Origin: Deltaproteobacteria bacterium
GTDB lineage: Bacteria; Desulfobacterota; BSN033; UBA1163
Reading direction: 5' to 3'
DNA length: 36,764 nucleotides
Assembly (NCBI GenBank): GCA_018333535.1
Contig: JAGXTA010000091.1
Location: forward strand, 1 to 36,764
Position numbers and translations under genes: made by a program. Positions 899-19,672 of this stretch are shown one piece after another. Below the pieces are notes generated by a model. That model saw nothing but the letters and a program-made list of their open reading frames with translations, did not search any database and was not told the origin of the DNA. Each line of letters begins with the position of its first letter. Within the stretch, counting starts at the first letter, position 1.

Positions 899-2683
899 AT
901 GGAAAAGTTAAAAAATTTTGATGCCCAATTAGTACTCAATTCTATTTACAACGGCATTATAGCGATTGATTCAGAAGGCATGATCACCTATTTCAACAAA
1001 ACAGCAGAAAGAATTTTTAATATCCCTGCTCATGAAGCCATGAATCGATATATCTTGGATGTCCTGCCAAATACCGGCGGTAAATTGCTCGATTGCTTGA
1101 AAACTGGAAAGCCATTTTATGGAGAGAAACTCAAAGGGCAAGAAGTTACCCTTATCTCCAATATAAATCCGATTGTGACGAACGGGAAAATCTCAGGGGC
1201 CGTAAGTTTCTTCCAAGACATTTCCGAAATTGAAAGTATCTCAAAAGAGCTTGACTTATTTAAGAATATGAAAAATTGGTTAGATACCATTATCGATTCG
1301 TCCTATGACGGTCTATGGATTTGTGACCACCAAGGCAAAGTCATCAGAATCAATAAGGCATCTGAAAGGATCAACGGGGTCAAAGCCGAAGAGGTGATTG
1401 GCAGGAATATGAGGGAACTGGTGGCAGAGGGCTTATGCGACAAGTCCGTTACTTTGGAGGTGTTGAAGAAGAAAACTTCTGTAACAATGATTCAACAGAT
1501 TAAAGGAGAGAAAAGGATCCTGGTCACAGGCAATCCAATTGTTAATGAAAAAGGGGAAATCACATTTGTCGTTACAAATGATCGTGATATTACTGAACTG
1601 GACGATCTGAGAAGTCAACTTCAAGAGATTCAGGCATTGGCCAAAGGTTATATTTCGAAGCTATCTGAATTAGAGATGCAAGGGGTTGACATAAAAAGTA
1701 TCATTTTTCGAAGCGAGGAAATGAAAAGAATCATTGAGATGGCCTTAAGGGTGGCTCCAGTCGATACAACCGTACTTCTTTTAGGGGAATCAGGTGTAGG
1801 TAAAGGAATAATTGCAAAACTGATTCACAAACACTCGGAACGGGGCACTGGACCCTTCATACGAGTCGATTGTGCAGGTATTCCAGACTCTCTCATTGAA
1901 TCGGAGTTATTTGGTTATGAAAAAGGCGCATTTACCGGGGCTAAGGTCGAAGGGAAACCCGGGTTCTTCGAACTCGCTAATAAAGGAACACTTTTTCTTG
2001 ACGAAATTGGAGAAATTACATTAAGTTCCCAATCAAAGCTTCTCCGCTTTTTAGAGGACCATGAAATTATCCGGGTTGGAGGAACAGAACCTAAAGAAAT
2101 TGATGTAAGGGTGATTGCGGCAACCAATAAGAACATTGAAGAGATGGTAAAGTCTAAAGGTTTCAGGGAAGACCTTTATTATCGACTCAATGTGGTTCCC
2201 ATCCATATCCCGCCCTTAAGAGAAAGACGGGAGGATATTTTACCTCTGATCTTTCATTTTCTTGAAAAATTCAATAAAAATTATCGAAAGGAAAAGGTTC
2301 TTTCTCCAGAGGCGATTGAAACCCTTTGCAAATATGACTTTCTAGGAAATATTCGTGAACTGGCTAATATTATAGAAAGGCTTGTTGTGATAACAGAAAA
2401 TGAGTGGATTGAAGCGCGAGATCTCTCAAATGCAATTGCAAGCTGTAATTCCAAGGAAATACCCTACTCTTTCTTAGCCGAAGGTATTTCACTCAAAGAT
2501 GCCCTGCAAAAATGTGAGAGCATTATTATTGAAAAGTCTATTAACAAATATGGTTCTCAGCGGGAGGCAGCAAAAGCTTTAAAGGTAGATCAGGGAACAA
2601 TTTCAAGGAAAATTAAGAAGTTTTCAATATCGAAAAAAGATGTATTGATGCATAATGAATTGCATTTACGCATCAAATATTAA
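899..2683 (+). CDS. Sigma-54-dependent transcriptional regulator with two PAS domains and TyrR-like HTH
   Basis: The 594-aa protein is a bacterial enhancer-binding protein that activates sigma-54 RNA polymerase. Two PAS sensor domains (about 10-115 and 125-235) precede an AAA+ domain with Walker A GESGVGKG at 296-303, the sigma-54 contact loop GAFTGA at 343-348 and Walker B GTLFLDEI at 363-370. The C-terminus (about 545-580, KYGSQREAAKALKVDQGTISRKIKK) resembles the TyrR/PhhR-type helix-turn-helix rather than classic Fis. GAGGGAGA upstream of the ATG is the ribosome site. No phosphoreceiver domain is present, so it probably senses a small ligand through PAS. It stands immediately before the aminotransferase/carbamoyltransferase operon, which carries a candidate sigma-54 promoter, and is the likely local activator. 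Confidence 0.92.
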   Translation: MEKLKNFDAQLVLNSIYNGIIAIDSEGMITYFNKTAERIFNIPAHEAMNRYILDVLPNTGGKLLDCLKTGKPFYGEKLKGQEVTLISNINPIVTNGKISGAVSFFQDISEIESISKELDLFKNMKNWLDTIIDSSYDGLWICDHQGKVIRINKASERINGVKAEEVIGRNMRELVAEGLCDKSVTLEVLKKKTSVTMIQQIKGEKRILVTGNPIVNEKGEITFVVTNDRDITELDDLRSQLQEIQALAKGYISKLSELEMQGVDIKSIIFRSEEMKRIIEMALRVAPVDTTVLLLGESGVGKGIIAKLIHKHSERGTGPFIRVDCAGIPDSLIESELFGYEKGAFTGAKVEGKPGFFELANKGTLFLDEIGEITLSSQSKLLRFLEDHEIIRVGGTEPKEIDVRVIAATNKNIEEMVKSKGFREDLYYRLNVVPIHIPPLRERREDILPLIFHFLEKFNKNYRKEKVLSPEAIETLCKYDFLGNIRELANIIERLVVITENEWIEARDLSNAIASCNSKEIPYSFLAEGISLKDALQKCESIIIEKSINKYGSQREAAKALKVDQGTISRKIKKFSISKKDVLMHNELHLRIKY

Positions 2684-2990: not shown

Positions 2991-4295
2991 ATGAAAACAA
3001 ACGGTTCATTGCTGTCTGAAAGAAACCAGCATATTCCACAGGGGCCATTCAATGTCCACCCCATTTTTGCTGCAAAGGCAAAAGGGGCGATTATCACCGA
3101 TGTGGAAGGGAAAGAGTATATCGATTTTGCAGGGGGCATCGGTGTAAACAATGTTGGCCACTGCGATGAAGAAGTGCTAAAGGCTGTCCAGGATCAAATT
3201 CAAAAATATATTCACACCTGTTTCCATGTGGTCATGTATGAACCTTATGTAGAACTGGCAAAAAGACTGAATGAGATCACCCCGGGAAATTTTCCAAAAA
3301 AGACGATGTTTGCAAATAGCGGTGCAGAGGCCGTTGAGAATGCCATCAAGATTGCCCGTCATGCCACGGGCCGACCTGCTATCATTGCATTTGAAGATGC
3401 CTTTCATGGCCGAACCCTTTTAGCCTTAAGCTTAACCAGTAAGATGAAACCTTATAAATTTGGTTTTGCGCCTTATGCTCCGGAGATTTACCGAATGCCT
3501 TATGCCTATTGCTACCGATGCGCTTTCGGTCTGGAATACCCTTCTTGTGAAATTCATTGCGCCTATTTTCTAAGAGATTTTTTCCAAACTCACATCTCTG
3601 CCGAACAGGTGGCGGCTTTGATTGTGGAGCCGGTATTGGGTGAAGGGGGATTTGTTGTTCCACCTAAGGAGTATTTCAAAATCCTTCATAAAATCTGTCA
3701 GGACAATGGAATCGTTTTCATTGCCGATGAGGTTCAGACCGGTTTTGGCCGTACTGCAAAGATGTTTGCCATGGAGCATTATGAGGTAGCGCCGGATATT
3801 CTGGTAACAGCCAAATCCATTGCTGGAGGATTTCCTCTCAGCGCCATCACCGGAAAGGCAGAACTAATGGATCATCCCCAGGTAGGAGGGTTGGGAGGAA
3901 CCTATGCAGGGAATCCCGTGGCCTGTCGGGCTGCCCTTGCGGTGCTTGATCAGTTTGAGAAGAAGGATCTCTTAGCGAGAGCTGAGAAAATTGGAAAAAG
4001 GGTCTTAGAAAAGTTCAAGGAATTTCAAGAGGACTATTCAATGATGGGTGATGTCAGGGGTTTAGGGGCAATGGTAGGAATGGAACTGGTGGTGGATCGA
4101 AAGACCAAAGAGCCAGCTACAGCTTTCACAAAACAGTTGGTGAATCATTGTCGTGAAAAAGGATTATTAATGATCTCCGCCGGTACTCACTCAAACATTA
4201 TCCGACCATTAATGCCTTTGGTGATTACAGATGATCAATTGGAAGAGGGCTTGAAAATTATTGGAGAGGTCTTAGATGAAGTCGGTCAATCATGA
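2991..4295 (+). CDS. gabT: Class III PLP-dependent aminotransferase (4-aminobutyrate aminotransferase-like)
   Basis: The 434-aa protein is a fold-type I, class III transaminase of the GabT/ornithine-delta-aminotransferase group. It has the PLP Asp in ADEVQTGFGRT (D246), the Schiff-base Lys in VTAKSIAGG (K275), the NSGAEAVE phosphate-binding motif and the FHGRT motif. A TTG at 2985 is an alternative start that lies closer to the purine-rich AAGGGGGGGAAGGG ribosome site. Residues 174-190 hold a four-cysteine pattern (C-x2-C-x8-C-x3-C) that recurs in the second class III aminotransferase of this window. It is the first gene of the putative sigma-54 operon and overlaps the next gene by 20 bases. 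Likely role: moving the amino group of a terminal amine (GABA, ornithine or similar) to 2-oxoglutarate or pyruvate; the precise substrate is unknown. Confidence 0.85.
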   Translation: MKTNGSLLSERNQHIPQGPFNVHPIFAAKAKGAIITDVEGKEYIDFAGGIGVNNVGHCDEEVLKAVQDQIQKYIHTCFHVVMYEPYVELAKRLNEITPGNFPKKTMFANSGAEAVENAIKIARHATGRPAIIAFEDAFHGRTLLALSLTSKMKPYKFGFAPYAPEIYRMPYAYCYRCAFGLEYPSCEIHCAYFLRDFFQTHISAEQVAALIVEPVLGEGGFVVPPKEYFKILHKICQDNGIVFIADEVQTGFGRTAKMFAMEHYEVAPDILVTAKSIAGGFPLSAITGKAELMDHPQVGGLGGTYAGNPVACRAALAVLDQFEKKDLLARAEKIGKRVLEKFKEFQEDYSMMGDVRGLGAMVGMELVVDRKTKEPATAFTKQLVNHCREKGLLMISAGTHSNIIRPLMPLVITDDQLEEGLKIIGEVLDEVGQS

Positions 4296-4596
4296 AGGAT
4301 TCAGTGATCCGATTGGGAACATCCCTCTGGATGACGAGCACGCTCATATTCTCATAGAATATTACGAGAACGCGACATCTCTTCGCCTGCTGATTGAAAC
4401 CATCGAAATAAGCGGAGCGAAGATCCTTGAGACCATCCCCCTAAGAGAGGAACCAGGTGGTCCAAGATCGGTTCTCTTTAAGCTCTATGTTGAGGACGCC
4501 AGGAATGCGGTCATCAGCCTTTCAAAGCATCCTTTGGCCAACCTGAAAGGATACAATGCGAAGTCAAAGATTGCCCAAAAAAGGAGGAACCGATGA
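4276..4596 (+). CDS. Small 106-aa protein, possible ACT-like ferredoxin fold
   Basis: I do not recognise this family. It has its own ribosome site (GGAGAGG) inside the 3' end of the aminotransferase gene, overlaps that gene by 20 bases and overlaps the following carbamoyltransferase gene by ATGA, so it is translationally coupled on both sides and very probably real. The order of predicted elements (strand HAHILIEYY, helix TSLRLLIETIEIS, strand AKILETIPL, strand RSVLFKLYV, helix ARNAVISLSK, strand) is beta-alpha-beta-beta-alpha-beta, the layout of ACT and related ligand-binding domains. An allosteric or accessory subunit for the neighbouring carbamoyltransferase or aminotransferase is a reasonable guess, based on fold impression and coupling only. 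Confidence 0.7.
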   Translation: MKSVNHEGFSDPIGNIPLDDEHAHILIEYYENATSLRLLIETIEISGAKILETIPLREEPGGPRSVLFKLYVEDARNAVISLSKHPLANLKGYNAKSKIAQKRRNR

Positions 4597-5531
4597 GAGA
4601 CAAATTCAGAGGGAAAGATTTTCTAAGTTTGATGGATTTTACCCGGGAGGAAATCAATGATATTTTGAACGTCTCTTATGAACTAAAGATGAAGTGGGCA
4701 AGGCGTGAACTCCACGAATATTTGAGAGGAAAGACGGTTGCCGTCATCTTTGAAAAACCCTCTACTCGAACCCGTACCTCTTTTCAGGCGGCCATTGCCC
4801 ATCTCGGGGCACAAAGCTTCTATATGCGTCCTGATGAAATGCAGTTAGCTCGAGGGGAACCAATCAAGGATACAGCTCGGGTCATTGATCGGTACTGTGA
4901 TGCCCTGGTGATGAGAACCTTTGGACAGGATCGGCTTGAAGAGTTTGCCCGATATATGAAAAACCCAGTGATCAATGCCCTTTCCGATCTGACTCACCCT
5001 TGCCAAGGTTTGGCGGACCTCTTGACCATCCGAGAGAAGAAAGGAGACTTTAAGGGGTTAAAACTTGTCTATGCGGGCGATATCTGGAATGTCTGCCACT
5101 CTCTCATGATTGCTGGCGGGACCATGGGATTCGATGTCTACGTGGCCGTTCCCGAGGGATATGCCCCCAATCCAAAGATTCACCAGTTTGCCATGGAGGC
5201 TGCGAAACGGAGTCGAACGAAAATTGTCCTCACGAAAGATCTAAAGGAAGCGTTAAAAGATGCGGATGTGGTTTATGCCAATACGTGGCATAGCATGGGC
5301 GCGGCTGAAAAAGAAAAGGAAAAGAGGGCTAAGGATTTTGGGCCCTATCAGATCAACGGAAAGGTGGTGGAGGAGGCAAAGCCTGATTTTATTTTCATGC
5401 ATTGTCTGCCCGGATATCGTGGGGAAGAGATGACCGATGAGATCATTGAGGGCCCCCATTCTGTCGTGTGGGATCAGGCTGAGAATCGAATGCATACGGA
5501 AAAGGCGGTCCTAGCCCTGTTTGTAGGATGA
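4593..5531 (+). CDS. argF: Ornithine carbamoyltransferase-like enzyme with altered amino-substrate residue
   Basis: The 312-aa length and motifs are those of OTC: carbamoyl-phosphate site STRTRTSF (57-64), HPCQGLADL (135-143), the amino-acid loop SMG (234-236) and HCLPG with the catalytic cysteine (270-274). The enzyme interconverts carbamoyl phosphate plus an amine with a ureido compound plus phosphate in the cytoplasm. Unusually, the family's D-x-W-x-SMG element reads N-T-W-H-S-M-G, so the aspartate that binds the alpha-ammonium of ornithine (Asp231 in E. coli, Asp263 in human OTC) is Asn230. Strong ribosome site (AAGGAGG); ATGA overlap with the preceding small gene. Carbamate kinase follows, favouring a catabolic, ATP-yielding direction. 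Substrate could be citrulline or a ureido compound without an alpha-amino group. Confidence 0.85.
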   Translation: MRDKFRGKDFLSLMDFTREEINDILNVSYELKMKWARRELHEYLRGKTVAVIFEKPSTRTRTSFQAAIAHLGAQSFYMRPDEMQLARGEPIKDTARVIDRYCDALVMRTFGQDRLEEFARYMKNPVINALSDLTHPCQGLADLLTIREKKGDFKGLKLVYAGDIWNVCHSLMIAGGTMGFDVYVAVPEGYAPNPKIHQFAMEAAKRSRTKIVLTKDLKEALKDADVVYANTWHSMGAAEKEKEKRAKDFGPYQINGKVVEEAKPDFIFMHCLPGYRGEEMTDEIIEGPHSVVWDQAENRMHTEKAVLALFVG

Positions 5532-5564
5532 AAAAGTTGATCCATAACGTTTAGTTGGAAACGG

Positions 5565-6515
5565 ATGAAGAAGCGGATTGTGATCGCCTTAGGTGGAAAT
5601 GCGATTAAGCAGCCTCATGAGTTGGGGACAGCCCAGGAACAGATGAAAAATATCAAGAATTCGTGTCAACAGATACTCCAAATCATCCAAGCGGGCTATG
5701 AAGTGGTATTGACGCATGGAAATGGTCCACAGATAGGAAATCTTCTTATCCAGCAAGAAACGGGAATTCCCCAAGTTCCGGTTCAACCCATGGATATTTG
5801 TGGTGCTATGACTCAAGGCCAGATTGGATATATGGTACAGCAGACGTTGGTCAATGGATTGAAGACTTACAATCTGAATCTCAACGTGGTCACAGTGATC
5901 ACACAGGTCTTGGTCAATCGGGAAGATCCGGACTTCAGGAGTCCGAGCAAACCCATAGGCCCATTTTACGACCAAGAAACGGGAAAAAGAAACCAGTCCG
6001 AGAAGGGTTACCAGATCAAACAGGTACTCCCAAATGGGGAAAAGCCTTTCCGTAGGGTGGTCCCTTCCCCTGATCCGATAAGGATATTGGAAGGAAAAGC
6101 GCTGAAACGGCTCGTCGATGCCGGGATGATTGTCATTGCTTCAGGAGGAGGAGGGATCCCTGTCACTTTGAATGATCGTGGAGAACTGGAGGGGGTGGAG
6201 GGAGTGATCGACAAGGACCTGGCAGGGGAGAAACTGGCAGAAGCCGTGGGCGCGGATATCTTAATGATCCTCACGGATGTGAATAAGGTTAAACTTGGGT
6301 TTGGTACCCCAGAAGAGAAAGATTTGGATAAGATAGATGTTAATCAAGCGAAACGCTATTTAAAAGAGGGCCATTTCCTACCAGGGTCGATGGCTCCCAA
6401 AATCTCAGCCTGTTTACGGTTTATTGAATACGGCGGGGAAAAGGCTATCATTGCCTCATTGGATAAATCTTGGGAGGCCATTCAGGGGCAGGAAGGCACA
6501 CATATCATTCCATGA
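5565..6515 (+). CDS. arcC: Carbamate kinase
   Basis: The 316-aa protein matches ArcC along its length: IALGGNAI at the N-terminus, LTHGNGPQIGNL, QPMDICGAMTQGQIGYM, RRVVPSPDP, IASGGGGIPV, GVEGVIDKDLAGEKLA, LTDVNKV and a C-terminal GSMAPKI. It transfers phosphate from carbamoyl phosphate to ADP, giving ATP, ammonia and CO2. It lies 33 bases after the OTC-like gene and overlaps the next gene by ATGA, so the carbamoyl phosphate released by either transcarbamylase can be captured for energy. The carbamate kinase motifs are intact, in contrast to its two transcarbamylase neighbours. Confidence 0.95.
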   Translation: MKKRIVIALGGNAIKQPHELGTAQEQMKNIKNSCQQILQIIQAGYEVVLTHGNGPQIGNLLIQQETGIPQVPVQPMDICGAMTQGQIGYMVQQTLVNGLKTYNLNLNVVTVITQVLVNREDPDFRSPSKPIGPFYDQETGKRNQSEKGYQIKQVLPNGEKPFRRVVPSPDPIRILEGKALKRLVDAGMIVIASGGGGIPVTLNDRGELEGVEGVIDKDLAGEKLAEAVGADILMILTDVNKVKLGFGTPEEKDLDKIDVNQAKRYLKEGHFLPGSMAPKISACLRFIEYGGEKAIIASLDKSWEAIQGQEGTHIIP

Positions 6516-7474
6516 GGATGGAGAGTATGGTACTCCACCATATAGTCGAAGCTCAGCAGTTTAATAAGAAAACCCTTCAGGAAATATTTATCTTTGCAGA
6601 CCGTGTTAAAGAACGTATAGAGCGTGGGTTTCCCCTGGAACTTCTTCGTGGAAAAATCTTAGCCAATCTTTTTTATGTTAAATCCATTCGAACCATGTTC
6701 TCTTTTGAGACCGCCATGAAACGGCTGGGGGGTGAAGTCATAGGGACTGAAAGTGGAGAAGCCTTTTCTTCCGAACTTGTAGGAGCAACCCTCGAAGATA
6801 CTGTAAGAATGGTCGGTTCATTCGTTGATGTCATTGTCCTCAGACATTATCAGAGTGGCTCAGCAAAACGTGCTGCGGAGGTCTCCCCTGTCCCAATTAT
6901 CAACGGGGGGGATGGAGCAGCTCAGCATCCTACGCAGGCGATTGTCGACCTATACTGCATTGAAAAGTTAATGGGAGGAGTGGATGGGGTTTCGATTGCC
7001 TTCCTCGGCAACTTGATGAATAGTCGGACGATTCGCTCCCTCGTTTATTTCTTAGCTAAATATTCAGGCATTAAAATATATTTCGCCTCCCCAAGAACCC
7101 TGAAGATGAAAGATGACCTTAAGGAATACTTGACCGAACATCGAGTTTCTTTCTCAGAATCCTTTGACAGTGCAGAGGATCTGATGGAAATTGCTTCCAA
7201 GGTGGATATTCTATATCTAACCCAGATACCTGAAGATCATTTTGGAGACCGTATTTGCGATTATGATAAATATAGGGAAATCTTCAGAATTAATCAAAAT
7301 ATCTTGAATAGGTTGAGGAAGGATACGTTCATCATGCATCCCTTCCCACGGGGTGATGAACTTCCGGTCCAAGTGGACAAAGACCCTCGCGCCATCTACT
7401 TTGATCAGATCAAGTATGGACAATTCCTCCGAATGGGCCTATTATGCTATGTGCTTGGAGTGAGGGTGGATTAG
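6512..7474 (+). CDS. Aspartate carbamoyltransferase-like protein with non-canonical active site
   Basis: The 320-aa protein aligns with the PyrB catalytic chain over its whole length, including SFETAMKRLGG (64-74), LRH (110-112), GDGAAQHPTQAIVDL (133-147), the SRT arginine (R172) and MHPFPRGDEL (275-284). Several catalytic positions differ from E. coli PyrB: STRTR is SIRTM (58-62), the KK of the 80s loop is LV (89-90, loss of catalytic Lys84), and TRVQ is TQIP (237-240, loss of aspartate-binding Arg229). It therefore probably uses carbamoyl phosphate and a different acceptor, or serves as a structural partner. The ATG overlaps the carbamate kinase stop; further in-frame ATGs at 6518 and 6527 are possible starts. 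No pyrI-like regulatory chain is adjacent, and the location is not a pyrimidine operon. Confidence 0.8.
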   Translation: MRMESMVLHHIVEAQQFNKKTLQEIFIFADRVKERIERGFPLELLRGKILANLFYVKSIRTMFSFETAMKRLGGEVIGTESGEAFSSELVGATLEDTVRMVGSFVDVIVLRHYQSGSAKRAAEVSPVPIINGGDGAAQHPTQAIVDLYCIEKLMGGVDGVSIAFLGNLMNSRTIRSLVYFLAKYSGIKIYFASPRTLKMKDDLKEYLTEHRVSFSESFDSAEDLMEIASKVDILYLTQIPEDHFGDRICDYDKYREIFRINQNILNRLRKDTFIMHPFPRGDELPVQVDKDPRAIYFDQIKYGQFLRMGLLCYVLGVRVD

Positions 7475-7572
7475 AGGAGAGGAATTGGAAGGGAGGTGAT
7501 GAAATAAACTTTTTCGTGCCCTAAGTGAAAGAAATAATCCAAAATGCTTTCAGAGATTGGTTCTCTCTTTTT

Positions 7573-7608
7573 CTTCGTCCTCCCTTGGTAAAGCAAAGGA
7601 GGACGAAG
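7573..7608. repeat. Hairpin overlapping a ribosome-binding site
   Basis: CTTCGTCCTCC at 7573-7583 and GGAGGACGAAG at 7598-7608 are exact 11-base reverse complements with a 14-base loop. The right arm contains the Shine-Dalgarno (AAGGAGG) and the first base of the GTG start of the following remnant, so the stem would hide the start site in RNA. No T-run follows, so it is a poor intrinsic terminator. Confidence 0.5.
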
Positions 7609-7721
7609 TGAGAATAGGACTCCACGGGCCTTTTAGTGCACCGGTTGCCTACTCTGGCGAGTTGATGAAAAAGGGGTTTTTGTTGGCCGTTGAAGAGATC
7701 AATAAGGCAAGAGGGGGATGA
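7608..7721 (+). pseudogene. ABC amino-acid binding protein, N-terminal remnant
   Basis: From GTG at 7608, behind a good ribosome site, 37 codons read VRIGLHGPFSAPVAYSGELM and on through [15 protein letters not shown] to TGA. This is the start of a periplasmic branched-chain-amino-acid-type binding protein (Peripla_BP_6 fold), normally about 350-400 aa. A signal peptide is missing. The similarity ends at the point where the tail of a carbamoyltransferase begins in another frame, so this is one side of a deletion junction. Confidence 0.55.
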
Positions 7722-7815
7722 TGATGTAATAGAAGGAGAGCAATCCGTGGTATGGGATCAGGCCGAAAACAGGCTTCATAAAGAAAAGGCAATATTATCT
7801 TTAGTAGTACCATAA
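7720..7815 (+). pseudogene. Second ornithine carbamoyltransferase, C-terminal remnant
   Basis: This frame encodes [18 protein letters not shown], then [13 protein letters not shown] and TAA. It matches the last 31 residues of the intact OTC-like enzyme of this window ([18 protein letters not shown]..). It is fused, one frame off, to the binding-protein remnant, and ends 23 bases before the DDAH-like hydrolase gene. The natural reading is that a second OTC gene stood directly upstream of the hydrolase and was lost by deletion. Confidence 0.75.
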
Positions 7816-7838
7816 ACGCAAGATAAAGGAGAAAAACT

Positions 7839-8681
7839 ATGTGGGTAAACAGCGAATATAAAAGGCTGAAGACCGTCCTCCTGTGTAAGCCAACCTTTTA
7901 CAGGATCCTTCCCATCAACCTCACAGCCAAGAAATACATAGAGTCTGGCCAACTTCCAAATATTCACAGGGCAATAGAAGAGCACGAGGAGTTGGTTCGG
8001 ATATATGAAAATTTCGGTGTTGAAGTGATTATGATGGAACCGGATCCTGATCTGCCCTACCAAACATTCACGAGAGATTTTGCATCTATGACTCCTAAGG
8101 GCGCGGTGATCTCCCGCATGCACGTGTCAGAGAGGCAAAGGGAGCCTGTCGTGGGCGCAGATATACTTGTTGAACACAGCATTCCTATTGCTGGTTTTAT
8201 AACGAGGGGGACATGTGAGGGGGGAGACTACATGTTTCTGGATGAGCATACCCTTGTCGTCGGCTGTGGAGGAAGATCGAATAGTGAGGGTATACAGTAC
8301 TTGAAAGATATGTCGCCGCGTTTGGGTCTCGAAATAATTCCAGTTATGTTCCATGGTGATTTTGTTCATATGGATTGCGTTGGAAACATCATTGGCGAAA
8401 AACTGATTATCGCATGCCTCGATGCTCTTCCTGCGAGCTACGTCGATATCTTAAAGGAGCGCCACTTCACGATAATCAATATCCCGGCTGCGTCTGTTCC
8501 CGATCTAAGCGCCAATGTTATGGCTTTGGATGAAAAGACCATACTAAGTCATGCATCAAATAATAGAGTGAACGATGAGCTCAAAGCGCTTGGTTTCGAG
8601 GTTCTTACTGTAAACATCCCTGAACTTCTAAAAGCGGGCGGAGGAATACATTGTAATGTTTTTCCAGTGCAAAGGACGTAA
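7839..8681 (+). CDS. DDAH / arginine deiminase-like guanidino hydrolase
   Basis: The 280-aa protein belongs to the guanidino-group-modifying (amidinotransferase-fold) superfamily. Visible active-site elements are FTRD (D80), CEGGD (E127-D130), VHMD with the catalytic His (H177) and the terminal GGGIHC with the nucleophilic Cys (C272). Members hydrolyse arginine, dimethylarginine or related guanidino compounds to ureido products through a covalent thiouronium intermediate. Its length fits the compact DDAH type rather than the roughly 400-aa ArcA. Good ribosome site (AAAGGAG). The OTC tail directly upstream and the carbamate kinase operon before that suggest it supplies the ureido substrate (citrulline or an analogue). 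Exact specificity is not readable. Confidence 0.8.
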   Translation: MWVNSEYKRLKTVLLCKPTFYRILPINLTAKKYIESGQLPNIHRAIEEHEELVRIYENFGVEVIMMEPDPDLPYQTFTRDFASMTPKGAVISRMHVSERQREPVVGADILVEHSIPIAGFITRGTCEGGDYMFLDEHTLVVGCGGRSNSEGIQYLKDMSPRLGLEIIPVMFHGDFVHMDCVGNIIGEKLIIACLDALPASYVDILKERHFTIINIPAASVPDLSANVMALDEKTILSHASNNRVNDELKALGFEVLTVNIPELLKAGGGIHCNVFPVQRT

Positions 8682-8704: not shown

Positions 8705-8825
8705 TAGTGTAGTGTCTCATGAATGGCTGGAGTTATTTACATGTAAATTTATAGGCCAAGACCTTCTAATATTACGCAAATACTTAGGAGGAAATACCTC
8801 CAGTTGTTTAAGAGACACTACACTA
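8705..8825. repeat. Roughly 121-bp inverted-repeat element (MITE-like)
   Basis: TAGTGTAGTGTCTC at 8705-8718 is exactly reverse-complemented at 8812-8825, and the match resumes at CTGGAG after eight mismatched bases, giving imperfect 27-28-base terminal arms. The interior contains a small GGAGG/CCTCC stem. It abuts the IS256-family relic and could be the end of an insertion sequence or a non-autonomous derivative. No clear target duplication was seen. Confidence 0.5.
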
Positions 8826-9425
8826 GTGGTGACGCTACAAGCAAGTGGGATACATGACACTATAGGGAAGAAGAACATCGTTGGGCTATGGCAGGGGGCC
8901 ACAGAGAATGCCACTGTCTGCACGAACCTTTTAAATGACACGGAGAGGCGCGGGCTGGACATGGGGAAGGACTACCTTTTAGTGCTTGATGTCTCTAAGG
9001 TGCTGAGGTCAGCCGTGGCGAGGAAGTTCGGGAGCAACTTCCGCATGGCGGATTACGATAAGGCAAAGGAGTCCCTTGATTTGACCAAAAGGTATCTGGA
9101 GAGGCTTAATCCGTCTGCGGCGGCGAGCCTGAGGGAGGGGCTTGAGGAAACACTCGCGGTGCATTGGTTATGCGTCAACAGGGCTTTTAAGGAAGACCCT
9201 CTCGACCACAAACCCGATTGAATCCCGTTTCTCCATAACCTGCAACATCACTGGACGGGTGAAAAAATGGAACGGCGGGGATAATATGGTTCAGAGATGG
9301 ACAGTGACAACACTTTTTTCAAGGCAGAGAAGAAGTTCAAGCGCATAAAGGGCTATAGGGAAATCCCAAAACTCATAGCTGCATTAGGGCAGAAAAATTT
9401 TGAAAGAAAGGAGATGGTAGCTTAA
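8817..9425 (+). pseudogene. IS256 (mutator) family transposase relic, frameshifted and deleted
   Basis: Similarity starts near LVVTLQ, continues through KKNIVGLWQGATENATVC and GLDMGKDYLLVLDVSKVLRSA, and on to NPSAAASLREGLEETLAV; these are landmark motifs of IS256-type transposases. Near 9180-9200 the frame breaks: the expected LRKTLSTTNPIES continues in another frame, then the C-terminal AEKKFKRIKGYREIPKLI ends in a third frame at TAA 9425. The N-terminal third is missing and the expected middle region (HKRRNV motif) is absent. An open frame exists back to GTG 8712, but its first part is only the inverted-repeat element. Confidence 0.8.
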
Positions 9426-9511: not shown

Positions 9512-10528
9512 ATGAGAAAGAAAATGATCCTGTTTTTGGTACTTTCGGTTGGGATGATGGGCCTGCTTTCCGGCCCTAACAAGGCAAGTGCCCAGAAAAA
9601 GGTTTATAACCTCAAACTTCAATCCTATTACTCTCCCGCAATGATTAGCGGCGACAAGAAATTTGCGGAGACCATTGAAAAGATGAGTAACGGCCGCATT
9701 AAGGTAACCGTTTTCTCAGGTGGCGAACTCGTTGCATCCGATCAAATCCTTCATGCCGTGAAGGCGGGAACAGTGGACATTGGGCATGGTTATGGCGCAT
9801 ACTATCCAGATGTTGCCATTGGAATTATCGAAAGCGGCCTTCCTATGGCATGGAATAGTGCAGTTGAGGCAGAACTACTTTATGAGCAGTACGGGCTTTT
9901 GCCTTTGGTTTCAGAATCATATAAGAAGGCTGGAGTTCACTACCTTGGGCCGACTTGGGCAGCTCCCTATGCTATTCTCACAAAGAAACCTATTGCCAAT
10001 CTCGATGACCTAAGAAAGCTCAAAATCCGAACCACGGCGGGGGCCGCAAAAATGTTCAACAAGGTTGGAGTTTCTACTGTCTATCTGCCTCCCGAAGAAG
10101 TTTATCTTGCTCTTTCAACTGGACAAATCGATGGCGTGCTCTACGGCTGCGCCGAAGAGTACAAGATAAACAAGTTCTACGAGGTGGCCCCTTACTATTG
10201 TACTTCATTCATATTGAACCCCATTGTAGATTGCATGGTGATAAATGAAAAAGTGTGGAGCCAGCTCCCTGATGATTTGAAGTCAATTCTGACTACAGCT
10301 ACCTATCGAGCCCGTTGGCACTATTACATGAGTGTTTTCGCAAAGGAGTATTCGGTCCGGGAGGAGATATTCAAAGGCAAACTGACCAGCCTGCCGCCTG
10401 AGGATATAGAGAAACTGACGAATGCGGCTTTTAGCGTGTGGGAGGAAGAGGCAAAAAAATCTCCTAGTAATGCGCGCGCTGTGAATTTGCTGAAGGATCT
10501 AAACAAGAAATTAGGCCGCTTAAAATAA
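9512..10528 (+). CDS. dctP: TRAP transporter solute-binding protein (DctP type)
   Basis: This 338-aa exported protein has a Sec signal peptide (about residues 1-27, ending ASAQ). The mature chain has DctP features: KKFAETIEKMSNGRIKVTVFSGGEL, AVKAGTVDIGHG, the domain-swap helix region and LRKLKIRT, in which the conserved arginine normally salt-bridges a substrate carboxylate. It delivers a carboxylate or amino-acid-like ligand in the periplasm to the membrane permeases encoded downstream. Strong ribosome site (AAGGAGGG). A MITE-like element separates it from the permease genes, so co-transcription may be changed. Confidence 0.92.
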   Translation: MRKKMILFLVLSVGMMGLLSGPNKASAQKKVYNLKLQSYYSPAMISGDKKFAETIEKMSNGRIKVTVFSGGELVASDQILHAVKAGTVDIGHGYGAYYPDVAIGIIESGLPMAWNSAVEAELLYEQYGLLPLVSESYKKAGVHYLGPTWAAPYAILTKKPIANLDDLRKLKIRTTAGAAKMFNKVGVSTVYLPPEEVYLALSTGQIDGVLYGCAEEYKINKFYEVAPYYCTSFILNPIVDCMVINEKVWSQLPDDLKSILTTATYRARWHYYMSVFAKEYSVREEIFKGKLTSLPPEDIEKLTNAAFSVWEEEAKKSPSNARAVNLLKDLNKKLGRLK

Positions 10529-10542
10529 GTTTTAGTAAGGAT

Positions 10543-10831
10543 GTGGCATATCATTCTTGTCCAAAATAGGTTTTAAAAAGTTCGTATTTTGGACAGCAAA
10601 GTGCTTATGAAGGTGCGGATATCCCTTGAATCCTTTGAATTAACCCTGTTTAAAGGCAATTTGAGGCCATAAAACGTTCTTGTTGCCAAATTATCTTGGA
10701 CAGCAAAATGAATCAGATTAAAAAAAGGATGGAACCTGGTTTTGAAAAGCTGTAAAACTTGTCCAAAAAGCCAATAATTTCAATGGGTCCCTTAAATATT
10801 TAGGTTATTTTGGACAGCACTGGTGGCATAT
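10543..10831. mobile_element. MITE of about 271 bp with 9-bp target duplication
   Basis: The direct repeat GTGGCATAT at 10543-10551 and 10823-10831 flanks an element at 10552-10822. Its ends are inverted repeats: CATTCTTGTCCAAAATA against CAGTGCTGTCCAAAATA, 14 of 17 identical with the inner 11 exact. The inner sequence holds further copies of the end motif (TATTTTGGACAGCA at 10585, CTTGGACAGCA at 10695, TGTCCAAAA at 10760). No coding frame is present. Size, ends and duplication together indicate a non-autonomous transposon inserted between dctP and dctQ. Confidence 0.65.
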
Positions 10832-10887
10832 ATCCTCATAAAAGTGGGTACACGCATCCATTAAAAATTTAAAGACTGAGCTTAACT

Positions 10888-11400
10888 ATGACAAATGGGC
10901 TGGTCAAAGTTCTTAAGGCGATTGATACATTGAGTCGATGGTCTGGGAAGGCTATGAGATGGCTGATTTATGTTCTTGTTATTATCATCATGTACGAGGT
11001 TACTTTGCGGTATATCTTTGGGCTTCCGACTGTTTGGGTTTTTGAGGCATCAACTATGGTATTTGGTGCCCTTGCGCTTGGGTCTGGAGCTTACGCTCAG
11101 GTTAACAAGGCGCATGTTTCGATGGATCTCTTCTACCGAGGAAGGTCCAAAAGGACGAAGGCCGTCATGGATGCGTGTACTTATCCGTTATTCATCGGAT
11201 TTCTTATTGTCCTAATGTGGAAATCAGGAGCATACGCTTACCTTTCTCTTGCCAGATTAGAGCATTCAACTACCGCTTGGGGACCTCCTCTTTACCTAAT
11301 AAAAACGGCGATACCGGTCGCCACAGCACTATTGGCCCTTCAAGGCTTTGCTGACTTTGTTCGTAATGTCGCATTTGCTATCACTGGGGGGGACCTTTAA
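10888..11400 (+). CDS. dctQ: TRAP transporter small permease (DctQ)
   Basis: The 170-aa protein has four hydrophobic segments (about residues 22-42, 53-75, 96-116 and 133-155), the size and topology of DctQ four-helix membrane subunits. Conserved-looking features are EVTLRYIFGLPTVWVFEAS after helix 1 and the acidic/basic loop VNKAHVSMDLFYRG. It pairs with the large permease to form the membrane part of the TRAP transporter. Its stop shares a base with the start of dctM, so the two are translationally coupled. Confidence 0.9.
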   Translation: MTNGLVKVLKAIDTLSRWSGKAMRWLIYVLVIIIMYEVTLRYIFGLPTVWVFEASTMVFGALALGSGAYAQVNKAHVSMDLFYRGRSKRTKAVMDACTYPLFIGFLIVLMWKSGAYAYLSLARLEHSTTAWGPPLYLIKTAIPVATALLALQGFADFVRNVAFAITGGDL

Positions 11401-12716
11401 TGAGCGCCGAAACCCTCACAATCGTTATGTTTGCTTGCATGTTGTTTGTCATGGCCTCTGGACTGCCCATTGCTTTTGTTCTCGGAAGCCTCGGAGTCAT
11501 ATTTGCCCTCTTCCTTTGGGGGCCAAGTGCTCTTGATTTGGTTTATTTTGCTGCAATCGATGTAGTAAAAAGTTTTGTACTGATTGCCGTACCACTGTTT
11601 ATATTTATGGGCCTTATGCTGCAAGAGTCTGGGATAGCCGATGACCTTTTTGATGCCATCTATGTTTGGGCTGGACGAATAAAGGGTGCCCTGGGCATGG
11701 GTACAATTGCCATTTGTGCGCTCATGGCTGCGATGGTCGGCATTAGCGGAGCTGCAACTTTGTCTATGGGCGTTATTGCGGTTCCTGCTATGCTTAAAAG
11801 AAACTATTCCAAAAGGATAGCCATTGGCCTAGTTCAGGCTGGCGGAGCATTGGGATTTTTGATTCCCCCGAGCGTAATGATGATAATGTATGGATTCATC
11901 GCCGGAGTTTCCGTGGGCAAGCTGTTTGCAGCAGGTATTATTCCAGGTTTGATGCTTGCTTCAATGTATATTATTTACATAGGAATACGATGCTATGCCC
12001 AACCCCAGATGGGCCCTGCTCTCCCTTCTGAGGAACGGGCGACTTTAAAACAAAAGCTGAGAATGACAAAGGTATTAGTCTTGCCCGCTATCTTAGTGGT
12101 TGTGGTGTTGGGTTTTATCTTTCTCGGTATAACGTCGCCCACAGAGGCATCAGCTGTTGGCGCTTTAGGGGCTGTCGTGTGTGCGGCCATCAAGAGAAAG
12201 CTTACATGGGATAGATTGCAGAAGGCTGCGCTGCGAACGGTGGAACTCTGCGGGTTTTCTTTTTGGATTGTTCTGGGTGCAATTGTATTCAGCAAAGTTT
12301 ACACAGGATTGGGTGCAGCTGGAGTAATTAGAGACACCATTTCCAATCTAGAGATTAGTCCGTGGGGCGTCTTGCTAGTAATGCAACTTAGTTTTTTTTT
12401 ACTCGGCATGTTTCTTGATGATATCGCGATCCTTTTTATGTGCATGCCGATTTACATCCCTATTATTTCTTATCTTGGCTTTGACCAAGTTTGGTTCGCT
12501 ATCCTTTATATTCTGAACATGCAGATGGCTTATTTGACACCCCCTTATGGCGTTAACCTTTTTTATATGAAGGCCGTAGCTCCACCTGAAGTGACTCTCG
12601 GGGATATCTACATATCAATAATCCCTTTTGTGTGCTTACAAGCATTATGTCTTCTGATAATCATGGTCTTCCCGGGAATCGTCCTTTTTCTGCCAAATTT
12701 GATATTTTCGAGATAG
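11400..12716 (+). CDS. dctM: TRAP transporter large permease (DctM)
   Basis: The 438-aa, strongly hydrophobic protein fits DctM (about 12 helices, usual length 425-440). Family motifs include GLPIAFVLG near the N-terminus, VPLFIFMGLMLQESGIADDLF, the conserved MAAMVGISGAATLSMGVIAVPAMLKR and SPTEASAVGALGA. It uses a cation gradient (usually sodium) to import the ligand captured by the DctP protein. It starts on the last base of the dctQ stop (TAATG). The downstream dehydrogenase gene may belong to the same catabolic locus. Confidence 0.93.
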   Translation: MSAETLTIVMFACMLFVMASGLPIAFVLGSLGVIFALFLWGPSALDLVYFAAIDVVKSFVLIAVPLFIFMGLMLQESGIADDLFDAIYVWAGRIKGALGMGTIAICALMAAMVGISGAATLSMGVIAVPAMLKRNYSKRIAIGLVQAGGALGFLIPPSVMMIMYGFIAGVSVGKLFAAGIIPGLMLASMYIIYIGIRCYAQPQMGPALPSEERATLKQKLRMTKVLVLPAILVVVVLGFIFLGITSPTEASAVGALGAVVCAAIKRKLTWDRLQKAALRTVELCGFSFWIVLGAIVFSKVYTGLGAAGVIRDTISNLEISPWGVLLVMQLSFFLLGMFLDDIAILFMCMPIYIPIISYLGFDQVWFAILYILNMQMAYLTPPYGVNLFYMKAVAPPEVTLGDIYISIIPFVCLQALCLLIIMVFPGIVLFLPNLIFSR

Positions 12717-12936
12717 AGATTCGCGCATATCTATTTCTCTATCGTCCTCGGGAGGTGATGAATAAAATTAGTGGTCAATTAAATGGATAAGATTAAGCCC
12801 CTTTTTTATAACCCCCCCCTCATCACCCATTTACGGTGTTCCCAATGACCCATTTGCAAAACTGTTAAGTGGGAATATGGGGAGATCATTCAGCCAACTT
12901 TCACATAAGCATCTGACAAGAAAGGAGAGAGCTTTG

Positions 12937-13962
12937 ATGGAGAAAATAATTAATGTTGTTCAGTATGGCCTTGGCGCAATGGGGAGCTTGATGGTTCGGT
13001 TGGCCTCAGGCAAAGCTAACTTGGAGGTCGTTGGTGCGGTTTCGGCATCCGGAAGGTATTTAGGTGTGGACCTCGGCGAAGCTTCGGGGCTTGGGAAACA
13101 TCTGGGTGTTACCGTAAAATCATCCCTCGAGCAAGTGCTCGAGGAAACCAAAGCGGATGTGATATTGGATGCGACGGTGTCTACAATGACCGAACTTATG
13201 CCGGAGATTCTCCCCGCTATTCGGGCGGGGCTAAATGTTATCTCAGTAGCAGAGGAGCTGTCATATCCTTGGGAGCGGAGTCCTGATCTGGCGTCTGAGT
13301 TAGATCGAGCTGCAAAAGAACATGGAGTTACAGTCCTTGGCACAGGTTTAAATCCTGGCTTTTTGATGGATCTTTTACCACTTAATCTTTCAGGAATCTG
13401 CGGGTCTGTAACGGCCGTCCGGGTGAGGCGAGTGACTGATTTTTCAGTATACGGACAAAGCGTAATGAAACATATTGGAGCCAACTTGACACCTGAGGAG
13501 TTTGAACGTGGTCTTCAGAATCGTTCAGTAGTATTGCATGTTGGGCTTCCCGAGTCGATTCAGATGGTGGCCAGAGGACTCAATTGGAAACTTGACCAGC
13601 TAAAGGAGGACCGCCGCGCCTTGGTTACCCGTACCGATCGTTTAGCAGAGAGTATAAAGGTACAAAAAGGACGAGTATGTGGGTTTTGGCAAACGGCCCG
13701 AGGCCAGGCAAAAGGAAATACTATTGAGTTGGAAATTTATGGCATAATATTACCCAATCCTTCGGAGGACGAGGTTTCGCCTGGGACCTGGATTAAAATT
13801 GAAGGAGATCCTGGTATTAATGTGGCTATTTCTGGAGGTATTTGTCAAGCAGGAGGGTTAGGAACTGTGACACATGCAGTCAACGCAATCCCTTTGGTAG
13901 TTGATGCGAAGCCGGGGTTACTTACCGTGAGGGAATTGCCCGTGGCCTCTTGCCTCCCTTAA
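12937..13962 (+). CDS. ord: 2,4-diaminopentanoate dehydrogenase-like NAD(P)-dependent oxidoreductase
   Basis: The 341-aa protein opens with an NAD(P)-binding Rossmann motif (QYGLGAMGS, 9-17) and follows the DapB-like fold of amino-acid dehydrogenases such as 2,4-diaminopentanoate dehydrogenase of ornithine fermentation: ILDATVSTMTELMPEI, AGLNVISVAEELSYPW, GTGLNPGFLMDLLPL and a C-terminal TVTHAVNAIPLVVDAKPGL. I start at the ATG following AAGGAGAGAG; an upstream in-frame ATG at 12877 has no comparable site. Ornithine aminomutase and racemase genes, needed for the full clostridial pathway, are not in the window, so the real substrate may be another diamino acid. Context with transporter and arginine-type genes fits amino-acid catabolism. 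Confidence 0.75.
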   Translation: MEKIINVVQYGLGAMGSLMVRLASGKANLEVVGAVSASGRYLGVDLGEASGLGKHLGVTVKSSLEQVLEETKADVILDATVSTMTELMPEILPAIRAGLNVISVAEELSYPWERSPDLASELDRAAKEHGVTVLGTGLNPGFLMDLLPLNLSGICGSVTAVRVRRVTDFSVYGQSVMKHIGANLTPEEFERGLQNRSVVLHVGLPESIQMVARGLNWKLDQLKEDRRALVTRTDRLAESIKVQKGRVCGFWQTARGQAKGNTIELEIYGIILPNPSEDEVSPGTWIKIEGDPGINVAISGGICQAGGLGTVTHAVNAIPLVVDAKPGLLTVRELPVASCLP

Positions 13963-17917: not shown

Positions 17918-19672
17918 ATGAAAGGCTTCTTTAATAAAATTCTGAGAATCAATCTCAAGACAAAAACCTTTAAAGAAGAATCCATTCCAGATTCGGTTTA
18001 TGAAACCTATTTGGGGGGAAAGGGACTTGGTACTTATCTCCTCATGAAGGAAAATCCTCCCGGGGTCGATCCCTTATCTCCTGGCAACAGACTGATCTTC
18101 GCCCTTGGCCCGATAACCAATAGCCGGATCTATGGGTCCTGCAGGCATGGCGTCTTCACAAAATCTCCTTTAACCGGAATCTTCTCCGAATCCTATGCCG
18201 GCGGGAAAGCCGCAGAATCCATGAGCCGGACTGGTTATGATGCGTTCATATTTGAAGAAGCATCCGAAAGCCCAGTATGGGTTGAAGTCTCGGATCAAAA
18301 TATAATTTTTCATGACGCAAAAGACCTCTGGGGGAAAGATACGTATTTTACAGAGGATGAAGTATTAAAAAAGGTGAATCAAAAGGGAGCCGGAGCCCTG
18401 GTGATCGGCCCTGCTGGAGAGAATCTTGTCCGATATGCTGTCATTGAAAATGATTACTGGCGATCCCTTGGAAGAACCGGCGTGGGCGCTGTGATGGGAT
18501 CAAAGAAGGTCAAAGCTATTGTCTTCCATGGGGAGAAGAAGCGGGAGGTCGCCTTTCCTGACCGGATTGAGCAGTTTGCCAAAGAAACTTTAGAGCGAGG
18601 GAAAGATAACCCTGGAGTCCAAAACTACAAAAGGATGGGAACTCCCATGCTTGTGGCCATGAACAATGCGGTCGGGGGGTTTCCATCGAAATACTGGCAT
18701 CTCGGGACTTTTGATGGGTGGGAGAAGATCAGCGCAGAAGCCCTCCTCGAACGCTGTCAGGTCAAACCGAGTGCCTGCCTCCGTTGTTTTGTCGCCTGCG
18801 GGAATTTAAGCGAAATCCTGCAAGGAAGGCATAAAGGTCTGAAAATCGAAGGGCCTGAATATGAGACGATCTATGCGTTTGGTGGCCTCTGCATGATTCA
18901 CGAGATCGAAGAGATCGCCTATCTCAACGATATCTGCGATCGACTGGGCATGGACACGATCTCCGCTGGAAGCCTCTGCGCCTTTGCCATGGAAGCCTCA
19001 GAGACGGGACGAATTCAGGAAAGAATTTCCTGGGGCGATGTGGACAGGATCGCTCAGCTTCTCCATGATATTTCATCCAGGAAAGGAATCGGGGCCATCC
19101 TGGCAGAAGGAATAAGACATGCCGCAAAAACCTGGGAGATGGAAGATGTTGCCATCCATGTGAAGGGTCTTGATCCTGCGGGTTACGAACCGAGAGTTCT
19201 GAAAGGGATGGGCCTCGCCAATGCCACCTCCGATCGGGGAGCTTGTCATTTGAGGGCGACATTCTACAAAGCAGAGCTCGCCGGGATGATTCCGATGGAT
19301 CAGATGGAAGAAAAGGCAAAACTCTTCCTCGAATTCGAAGACCGGTTTAACATCCATGATTCCCTCATTTTGTGCCGGTTTTATCGTGACCTCTATTGGG
19401 ATTGGAGTTACCTTTCCACGATTGTAGAAATGACCACGGGTCTCAAATTGGATGAGGCAGGGTTGAGAAAGATTTCTTCCACGATTCAGAATGAGACCAG
19501 AAGGTTTAACCTCCGTGAGGGAATGACTCCAAAGGATGATACCCTTCCGAAAAGATTTTTTGATGAACCCCTCGGCAAAGACGGGAAGACGATCCGAAGG
19601 GAAGATCTTCAGAAGATGCTTAAGGATTATTATGCCCTGAGGGGTTGGAATCCTGAGGGAATCCCGCATTAA
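17918..19672 (+). CDS. aor: Aldehyde ferredoxin oxidoreductase (tungsten/molybdenum pterin enzyme)
   Basis: The 584-aa protein fits the AOR family over its length. The N-terminal domain has YLGGKGLGTYLL, GSCRHGVFTKSPLTGIFSES and GRTGVGAVMGSKKVKAI; the [4Fe-4S] ligands are C287, C290 and C294 (ACLRCFVACGN) with the fourth at C486 (LILCRF); the cofactor region has GPEYETIYAFGGLC and LGMDTISAG. It oxidises aldehydes to acids with reduction of ferredoxin, or the reverse, in the cytoplasm. Ribosome site GAAAGGAAAG. No moaD-like or ferredoxin gene is adjacent, and it is the only gene on the strand until the membrane protein. Aldehydes formed by amino-acid transamination are plausible substrates. 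Confidence 0.93.
   Translation: MKGFFNKILRINLKTKTFKEESIPDSVYETYLGGKGLGTYLLMKENPPGVDPLSPGNRLIFALGPITNSRIYGSCRHGVFTKSPLTGIFSESYAGGKAAESMSRTGYDAFIFEEASESPVWVEVSDQNIIFHDAKDLWGKDTYFTEDEVLKKVNQKGAGALVIGPAGENLVRYAVIENDYWRSLGRTGVGAVMGSKKVKAIVFHGEKKREVAFPDRIEQFAKETLERGKDNPGVQNYKRMGTPMLVAMNNAVGGFPSKYWHLGTFDGWEKISAEALLERCQVKPSACLRCFVACGNLSEILQGRHKGLKIEGPEYETIYAFGGLCMIHEIEEIAYLNDICDRLGMDTISAGSLCAFAMEASETGRIQERISWGDVDRIAQLLHDISSRKGIGAILAEGIRHAAKTWEMEDVAIHVKGLDPAGYEPRVLKGMGLANATSDRGACHLRATFYKAELAGMIPMDQMEEKAKLFLEFEDRFNIHDSLILCRFYRDLYWDWSYLSTIVEMTTGLKLDEAGLRKISSTIQNETRRFNLREGMTPKDDTLPKRFFDEPLGKDGKTIRREDLQKMLKDYYALRGWNPEGIPH

Follow-up and report, generated by a model that had tools for sequence, protein, structure and literature searches.

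Comparison of the locus with described carbamoyl phosphate pathways

To our knowledge, few routes to ATP through carbamoyl phosphate have been described, namely those from arginine, agmatine, allantoin and uric acid. Here we describe a locus on contig JAGXTA010000091.1 of the assembly of an anaerobic Deltaproteobacteria bacterium (GCA_018333535.1; Desulfobacterota), which we analyzed at its full length of 36,764 nucleotides (hereafter the window). Positions 2991–7474 are a tight five-gene operon, with a deiminase gene (7839–8681) downstream; together these genes encode a class III aminotransferase of the 4-aminobutyrate (GABA) transaminase type, a small protein, a carbamoyltransferase resembling ornithine carbamoyltransferase (OTC), a carbamate kinase (CK), a second carbamoyltransferase resembling the PyrB chain of aspartate carbamoyltransferase (ATCase), and a hydrolase with the fold shared by dimethylarginine dimethylaminohydrolase (DDAH) and arginine deiminase (ADI). 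Judging from their sequences, we put at about even the chances that they form a catabolic module yielding ATP from a guanidino carboxylic acid that has no alpha-amino group; if so, guanidino acids would be an additional route to ATP through carbamoyl phosphate.

The closest described system is the arcABC pathway, which likewise combines a guanidino hydrolase, an OTC-family enzyme and CK to turn carbamoyl phosphate into ATP; however, the window hydrolase is DDAH-sized and far under the ADI model, its OTC-like enzyme lacks the Asp of the DxxxSMG motif, and a GABA-type aminotransferase leads the operon. The agmatine deiminase/putrescine transcarbamylase system also places an OTC-type enzyme shifted to another substrate beside CK, but in putrescine transcarbamylase the Asp remains while the carboxylate-reading Lys and the SMG motif are gone, the reverse of the window enzyme (PMC3282769). 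In uric acid degradation, the ureido group is removed, depending on lineage, by a hydrolase (UacY) or by phosphorolysis with a carbamoyltransferase and CK in the hydrolase's place (YgeW/YqeA) (PMC12507026); YgeW is a knotted transcarbamylase, whereas the window OTC-like protein scores 76–89 bits on YgeW models with cut-offs of 453–500, and no purine genes were seen in the window. The oxamate carbamoyltransferase (AllFGH) systems with CK are similar in that relatives of the window CK and PyrB-like protein end AllFGH operons (see below), and differ in that the window has an OTC-like enzyme instead. The pseudo-ATCases, which include the ureidoglycine transcarbamylase of Rubrobacter xylanophilus, share with the PyrB-like protein the lack of RxQ, and their group 1 (R. 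xylanophilus) is found beside CK (PMC4016543). Finally, the window deiminase resembles DDAH in fold family, size, catalytic Cys/His/acid residues, guanidine-binding Asp and Arg145, but has Tyr in place of the alpha-amino binder Asp73 and scores under the DDAH equivalog cut-offs.

A first-pass annotation, made from the letters of the window alone, had placed these six plus-strand genes with all but one junction overlapping or tight, and this was confirmed: the spacings are −20 nt (aminotransferase/small protein), −4 nt (small protein/OTC-like), +33 nt (OTC-like/CK), +2 nt (CK/PyrB-like) and +364 nt (PyrB-like/deiminase). Its descriptions of both transcarbamylases as altered in substrate residues, of the kinase as intact and of a GABA-type aminotransferase leading the operon likewise hold, as detailed below; the gene debris in the 364-nt gap is a feature beyond that annotation.

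The OTC-like carbamoyltransferase and its clade

The OTC-like protein (4593–5531, plus strand) passes the OTC equivalog model TIGR00658 (402 bits, cut-off 281) and, by comparison with E. coli ArgI and the ArgF of its own genome, retains FxKxSTRT, HPxQ (as HPCQ), SMG and HCLP. It has GDIWN for GDxNN and NTWHSMG for DxxxSMG (DVWxSMG), i.e., Asn at the Asp231 site. The ornithine contacts in OTC are Lys53, Asn167, Asp231, Ser235 and Met236 (PMC4581275); four of the five are kept here and Asp231 alone is changed. As the Lys that pairs with the ornithine carboxylate in OTC (PMC3282769) is among those kept, carboxylate reading is retained, and the loss of Asp231 with Lys53 and SMG in place fits a substrate that has a carboxylate and lacks a second amine. 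On the basis of these residues we propose that the protein is an omega-ureido-acid carbamoyltransferase. If this is true, its shift in specificity runs opposite to that of putrescine transcarbamylase, with carboxylate reading kept and amine reading dropped.

Our searches drew on two overlapping samples of the window's own phylum (297 and 395 genomes), which the genome-wide search covered, a class sample of 23 genomes, and a plasmid collection. Asp occupies the 231 site in 28 of 30 OTC loci of the 297-genome sample, the remaining two, with Asn, being the window and genome G258. Three matches to the OTC-like protein among the 395 genomes pass an E-value of 1e-101, the protein itself and those of G258 (86% identity, from the same class) and G081 (51%, with the canonical motif), and in the class search 2 of the 23 genomes pass, including its own. 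OTC matches occurred in 28 plasmid records, the highest identity (53.9%) being to a protein encoded by a plasmid of Enterococcus mundtii. This protein has Met in place of Asp231, retains Lys53, Asn167, Ser235 and Met236, and has the 80s-loop sequence RPDEMQ in common with the window protein. The first Asn of GDxNN is replaced by an aromatic residue in all three proteins (Trp in the window, Phe in G258, and an aromatic residue in E. mundtii too), and they form one clade with support of 100/99 (40 rows).

Three other assignments were set aside. An agmatine/putrescine module is ruled out, as the carboxylate-reading residues are kept (FEKPSTRT and HSMG are present; the putrescine enzymes lack the Lys two residues ahead of STRT and have a (Y/W)(G/W)(V/L/I) loop where OTC has SMG); the score against the putrescine carbamoyltransferase model TIGR04384 is 289 bits, with a cut-off of 500. 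The YgeW type is excluded by scores of 76 bits on TIGR03316 (cut-off 500) and 89 bits on NF005538 (cut-off 453). Nor are the window transcarbamylases the housekeeping enzymes: of four transcarbamylase genes in the genome, an argF and a pyrB with canonical motifs are on contig C126 together with a dihydroorotase-like gene, and we take this pair as the housekeeping copies; both window genes are therefore extra paralogs.

The deiminase, the gene debris before it and its plasmid relatives

The deiminase (7839–8681, plus strand), a proposed guanidino-acid deiminase, is over cut-off for PF19420 and PF02274. It also matches DDAH and ADI models, all curated NCBIfam cut-offs shown being far above its score (e.g., 69.7 bits vs. 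489.1 for the ArcA model TIGR01078), and each of its DDAH equivalog scores is under cut-off. The catalytic Cys, His and Glu and the guanidine Asp that mark the DDAH/ADI superfamily are all present, and they are kept, along with Arg at the human Arg98 and Arg145 positions, in 8/8 deiminase-type rows of a residue table that, from phylum loci L078–L084, takes in L079 and L082 and leaves out L080 and L081, which yielded no usable frame, and L078, L083 and L084, for which the frame was wrong. The roles of DDAH Arg98 and of Glu114 in Pseudomonas DDAH are presumed here. In human DDAH1 the side chain of Asp73 holds the alpha-amino group (PMC10958460); this position, which we located by its spacing to Asp79 and by alignment to Pseudomonas DDAH, is Tyr in the window deiminase. 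Seven relatives have Val, Lys, Met, Met, Phe, Glu and Arg there, and the two remaining rows (L079 and L082), both DDAH-looking, have Asp. The Tyr at this position and the loss of Asp231 in the OTC-like protein are suggestive of an acid that has no alpha-amino group.

The 364-nt gap before the deiminase holds debris of two genes on the plus strand: the N-terminus of a periplasmic ATP-binding cassette (ABC) solute-binding protein (7605–7718; PF13458 positions 1–37, E-value 3.1e-6, 27.5 bits, under the Pfam gathering score of 31.7) and the C-terminus of a second OTC-type gene (7720–7815; PF00185, E-value 1.9e-8, 34.9 bits, over the cut-off of 29.4). The latter was also matched by tblastn with the window OTC-like protein against the 501-base stretch alone (1.2e-13). 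Its tail of 31 residues, too short to place firmly, is identical to the window OTC-like protein at 20/30 positions and to the genome's own ArgF at 15/29. As its stop codon lies 23 nt upstream of the deiminase start, the deiminase gene once directly followed an OTC-type gene at this locus.

Relatives of the deiminase were found in 55 plasmid records, and we inspected the neighbourhoods of six, E. mundtii among them; the E. mundtii and aerobic relatives come from this plasmid collection only. On the E. mundtii plasmid, the OTC-like gene lies 2.4 kb from the gene for a 284-residue deiminase that is 35% identical to that of the window and has Val at the Asp73 position; a PucR regulator and a YfcC-family permease are encoded on the same stretch. 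The pairing of OTC-like enzyme and deiminase is thus supported by its recurrence, once on this plasmid and once as gene debris in the window. At plasmid locus L111 the deiminase adjoins a carbamoylase-family hydrolase (over the TIGR01879 cut-off), with arginase-family and agmatinase-annotated genes also present, and at L109 an amidase and a class III aminotransferase are near it; a carbamoylase or amidase in this place is expected if the product of the deiminase is a ureido acid. Most of the inspected set would be explained if the deiminase reaction is followed by loss of the carbamoyl group, through hydrolysis in the aerobes and phosphorolysis here, an exchange of the kind described for uric acid (PMC12507026).

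A candidate pathway and competing explanations

In the pathway that we propose, the deiminase would hydrolyze the guanidino group to a ureido group with release of ammonia, and the OTC-like enzyme would use phosphate to convert the resulting ureido acid to an omega-amino acid and carbamoyl phosphate. From the latter CK would, as expected of its family, form ATP with release of CO2 and ammonia, and the GABA-type aminotransferase would convert the amino acid to its semialdehyde. Because the aminotransferase is of the GABA type, our best guess for the likeliest substrate is 4-guanidinobutyrate, processed via 4-ureidobutyrate to GABA, with 5-guanidinovalerate (to 5-aminovalerate) the runner-up; the chain length is inferred. 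Transamination of arginine does yield 4-guanidinobutyrate, on which a ureohydrolase acts in rhizobia (PMC7268258). In the open-licence literature, we found no paper with both guanidinobutyrate and ureidobutyrate, and, among those listed, none whose title or opening lines of abstract describe such a pathway. The first-pass annotation had already suggested an ADI-style module for an acid other than arginine, with this same conversion as its example. The shifted specificity finds backing in the Asp231 to Asn and Asp73 to Tyr replacements and in the recurring pairing; as to the example, it fits the GABA-type aminotransferase, with a tentative chain length.

The pathway is now partly supported, being linked to a small clade in which the partner gene recurs. 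Taken more widely, the data may describe an omega-ureido-acid carbamoyltransferase that works with a dedicated guanidino-acid deiminase in an ADI-like ATP pathway for 4-guanidinobutyrate or an acid like it, one that occurs in two phyla or more and has an aerobic counterpart where a carbamoylase or amidase stands in for phosphorolysis, and in addition a further group of CK-tied pseudo-ATCases; we hold this wider proposal tentatively, at somewhat less than an even chance. If it is true, it would supply a function for deiminases whose present names go no further than "arginine deiminase family" or "dimethylarginine dimethylaminohydrolase family".

Several observations weigh against the proposed pathway. 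ADI, an arginine enzyme, has Asn at the Asp73 position in our alignment, so the loss of Asp73 alone does not prove the loss of the alpha-amino reader, and one deiminase relative has Glu there. Support for the OTC-like clade falls to 91/83 (39 rows) once four motif stretches are removed, and the branch leading to E. mundtii is long. The G258 relative of the deiminase is only 31% identical and lies 18 kb from the OTC-like gene, with the CK genes on another contig, and neither CK nor an aminotransferase was seen in the 20.9-kb E. mundtii stretch. Among the other plasmid loci, the L111 hydrolase is also over the cut-off of an allantoate amidohydrolase subfamily model, the L109 aminotransferase is nearest to glutamate-1-semialdehyde aminomutase models and not to GABA transaminase, in L107 and L108 an amidohydrolase is present instead of a carbamoylase, and no related gene neighbours the deiminase in L110.

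The foremost competing explanation is a divergent but ordinary ADI pathway, in which arginine or methylarginine is converted to citrulline and then to ornithine and carbamoyl phosphate, the aminotransferase acting on ornithine or being unrelated. The margin of more than 100 bits by which the OTC-like protein exceeds the OTC equivalog cut-off agrees with this, as do the absence of Asp at the DDAH Asp73 position from ADI itself, the weak match of the E. mundtii permease to the basic amino acid antiporter model YfcC (186 bits, cut-off 500), and the cluster of a class III aminotransferase, OTC, PyrB and CK with canonical residues in genome G161. However, the Asp of DxxxSMG is gone from three related enzymes (Asn, Asn and Met) and present in the 28 other OTC loci, and the deiminase is far below the ADI cut-off and all DDAH cut-offs shown; we therefore regard an ordinary ADI pathway as unlikely, if still worth keeping in view.

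Less probable again is that the alpha position of the substrate carries a keto, hydroxyl or N-acyl group, as in 2-oxo-5-guanidinovalerate formed by transamination of arginine. With Asn in place of Asp231, the OTC-like enzyme could bind a neutral polar group, and near the G258 locus we read an opine-oxidase-like three-gene set, albeit with weak family matches (ThiO 158 bits vs. 251, SoxA 161 vs. 1164). The Met of the E. mundtii enzyme cannot form such a bond, though, and the aminotransferase is of the GABA type.

The PyrB-like carbamoyltransferase

The PyrB-like protein (6518–7474, plus strand), a pseudo-ATCase, passes the ATCase equivalog model TIGR00670 (261 bits, cut-off 237). RxQxER of the 240s loop, which in ATCase anchors the beta-carboxylate of aspartate (PMC4581275), is replaced by QIPEDH, STRT has become SIRT and the 80s-loop Lys is lost, with HPTQ, R105 and R167 kept; of the carbamoyl phosphate residues, R54, T55, R105, H134 and Q137 (E. 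coli ATCase numbering, PMC4581275) are all retained. Keeping R167 and losing R229 and Q231 suggests a carboxylate substrate that is smaller than aspartate or differs from it. The equivalog cut-offs of TIGR00658 (OTC) and TIGR00670 (ATCase) admit, as here, proteins without the substrate-defining residues. Among solved structures, we take 6ypo to be a plant ATCase.

RxQxER is lost in 7/7 members of the clade to which the protein belongs: the window, L006, L007, L008, G057, and the partial G189 and G019. For this count L006 and G122 were taken as the same contig, both having a length of 110,601, and counted once, and the G161 PyrB was left out for its canonical RIQKER motif; of the phylum matches of 46% identity or less, three (the genome's own PyrB, the G057 PyrB and G161) were inspected individually. 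G057 and G189 retain the 80s-loop Lys, which is missing from the window, L006, L007 and L008; the partial G019 sequence does not include this position. The motif pair of the clade, HP[FL]P with [QD][IL][PS] (HPFP and QIP in the window), fits none of pseudo-ATCase groups 1–3, for which Table 1 of PMC4016543 gives the pairs HPLA with AI[AS], H[ST]LP with GX[SC], and HSLP with VXP. As a query against a collection of genome contigs, the protein found three loci.

In 6/7 clade loci the PyrB-like gene is downstream of CK. The operons of L006, L007 and L008, which contain AllF, AllG, AllH and an ABC transporter (named by Pfam in L006 and by reading of the sequences in L007 and L008), close with CK and then the PyrB-like gene; in G057 it follows a CK gene that itself comes after argF, a dihydroorotase-like gene and pyrB; and in the fragmentary G019 locus it is again after CK. 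In G189 the partial gene is at a contig end and no CK was found in the genome. This adjacency marks the PyrB-like protein as linked to CK rather than as a dedicated partner of the OTC-like enzyme, and we propose that it is either a second carbamoyltransferase sharing this kinase or a partner of CK. The AllH-AllG-AllF-CK operons ending in the pseudo-ATCase extend over L006:4097–10951, L007:4650–10951 and L008:4971–10939, and that of L008 additionally has an isochorismatase-family hydrolase and an amidase; two kinds of transcarbamylase may serve one pathway in these operons.

These findings bear on a third explanation, in which the locus is two modules, an OTC-like/deiminase pair and a CK/PyrB-like cassette derived from a purine- or oxalurate-type (AllFGH) operon and acting on another compound, or in which the PyrB-like protein is non-catalytic. 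It draws on the CK/PyrB-like adjacency that ends the three AllFGH operons, on the G258 OTC-like locus, which has neither CK nor PyrB-like gene, and on the SIRT and lost 80s-loop Lys of the window protein. CK lies 33 nt after the OTC-like gene in a tightly packed set of five genes, however, the carbamoyl phosphate residues are kept, and AllF-like (FdrA) proteins occur in the genome only as two partial matches (E-values of 1.2e-8, over ~180 residues, and 4e-6), in a search that was for AllF and did not extend to AllG or AllH; an AllFGH pathway in this genome was set aside on account of these partial matches. As an account of the whole locus we think two modules improbable, more so than an alpha-substituted acid, but the idea concerns the PyrB-like part and is compatible with the guanidino-acid pathway. 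Transcarbamylase and carbamate kinase reactions are reversible, and CK could in that case make carbamoyl phosphate with which both enzymes carbamoylate unusual amines, yet a locus that also encodes a deiminase, itself a maker of ureido groups, and a GABA-type aminotransferase makes such an anabolic direction very hard to credit.

Gene order in other genomes

The first-pass annotation had looked to the same gene order in other genomes, and counted an order unique to this contig as refuting its reading. This is nearly the case: the phylum, class and contig searches gave no second locus with all six genes in this order, although sub-modules recur. In G161 (L072:6801–12587) a class III aminotransferase, canonical OTC, canonical PyrB, an NTPase-like gene and CK form one cluster; given its canonical residues, the gene combination itself is not new, whereas the changed residues and the deiminase pairing are. 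The suggestion that the two transcarbamylases are one designed pair is not supported: the PyrB-like protein occurs in AllFGH operons without the OTC-like one, G258 has the OTC-like protein and no PyrB-like one above 42% identity, and the 20.9-kb E. mundtii stretch carries no annotated PyrB-like gene. Downstream of the G258 OTC-like gene come genes for a solute-binding protein and a branched-chain-type ABC transporter (names by reading of the sequences).

The remaining operon genes, regulators and neighbouring genes

The aminotransferase (2991–4295, plus strand) passes the GABA transaminase model TIGR00700 (554.5 bits, cut-off 506.65) and is below other GABA transaminase models (e.g., NF005376, 574.5 vs. 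676); its best 11 relatives of solved structure are 4-aminobutyrate transaminases. CK (5565–6515, plus strand) passes TIGR00746 (395 bits, cut-off 358) and is 69% identical to the CK of G122 and 59% to that of G057. As regards the 4-hydroxybutyryl-CoA route for GABA carbon, three HpaB_N proteins in the genome are over cut-off; two of these were checked, and their sole match is to a monooxygenase model whose cut-off is far above their scores.

The 106-residue protein (4276–4596, plus strand) had no NCBIfam or Pfam match. A homolog (32% identity over 78 residues, two-sequence E-value 7e-14) is encoded directly before the G258 OTC-like gene, and a profile of the two sequences gave strong matches to these same two only among the 297 genomes, with five others at E-values of 2.4e-5 to 0.0097. 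Its predicted strand/helix pattern is ferredoxin-like, in a weak model (pLDDT, the predicted local distance difference test score, of 64) without structural match under an E-value of 1e-3. It is a possible regulatory subunit, probably acting on the OTC-like enzyme.

Upstream, 899–2683 (plus strand) encodes a PAS/sigma-54 activator, a probable regulator of the operon, whose nearest NCBIfam model is PrdR (481 bits, cut-off 795); in G258 an activator 51% identical to it precedes the small protein and OTC-like genes. A sigma-54 promoter-like sequence, TGGCACGAAAGATGTA, is located at 2883–2898 upstream of the operon with two mismatches. We dropped it as evidence because the counts of such matches do not exceed expectation (12 observed vs. 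13.9 expected in the window, 5 vs. 6.9 in L069); sigma-70 and terminator scans likewise gave no excess over shuffles. At the far end of the window there is a second PrdR-like sigma-54 activator (33583–34995) and a second class III aminotransferase (28980–30314).

Downstream of the deiminase, a fragment related to IS256/Mutator transposases (8712–9221, scores under curated cut-offs) precedes the genes of a tripartite ATP-independent periplasmic (TRAP) transporter (9512–12716, plus strand; DctP, DctQ and DctM), a possible importer for the module. DctP (TRAP_S1) and DctM (TIGR00786) are over cut-off, and DctQ (10888–11400), with no match at 1e-40 in the NCBIfam search, is named from its position only. 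After these comes a relative of 2,4-diaminopentanoate dehydrogenase (Ord) (12877–13962; 325 bits, cut-off 400), for which an amine or imine product could be a substrate. Further on, an aldehyde ferredoxin oxidoreductase relative (17918–19672) could in principle oxidize a semialdehyde derived from the aminotransferase, and a C-rich degenerate tandem repeat with a period of 24 and ~4.8 copies occupies 19764–19876.

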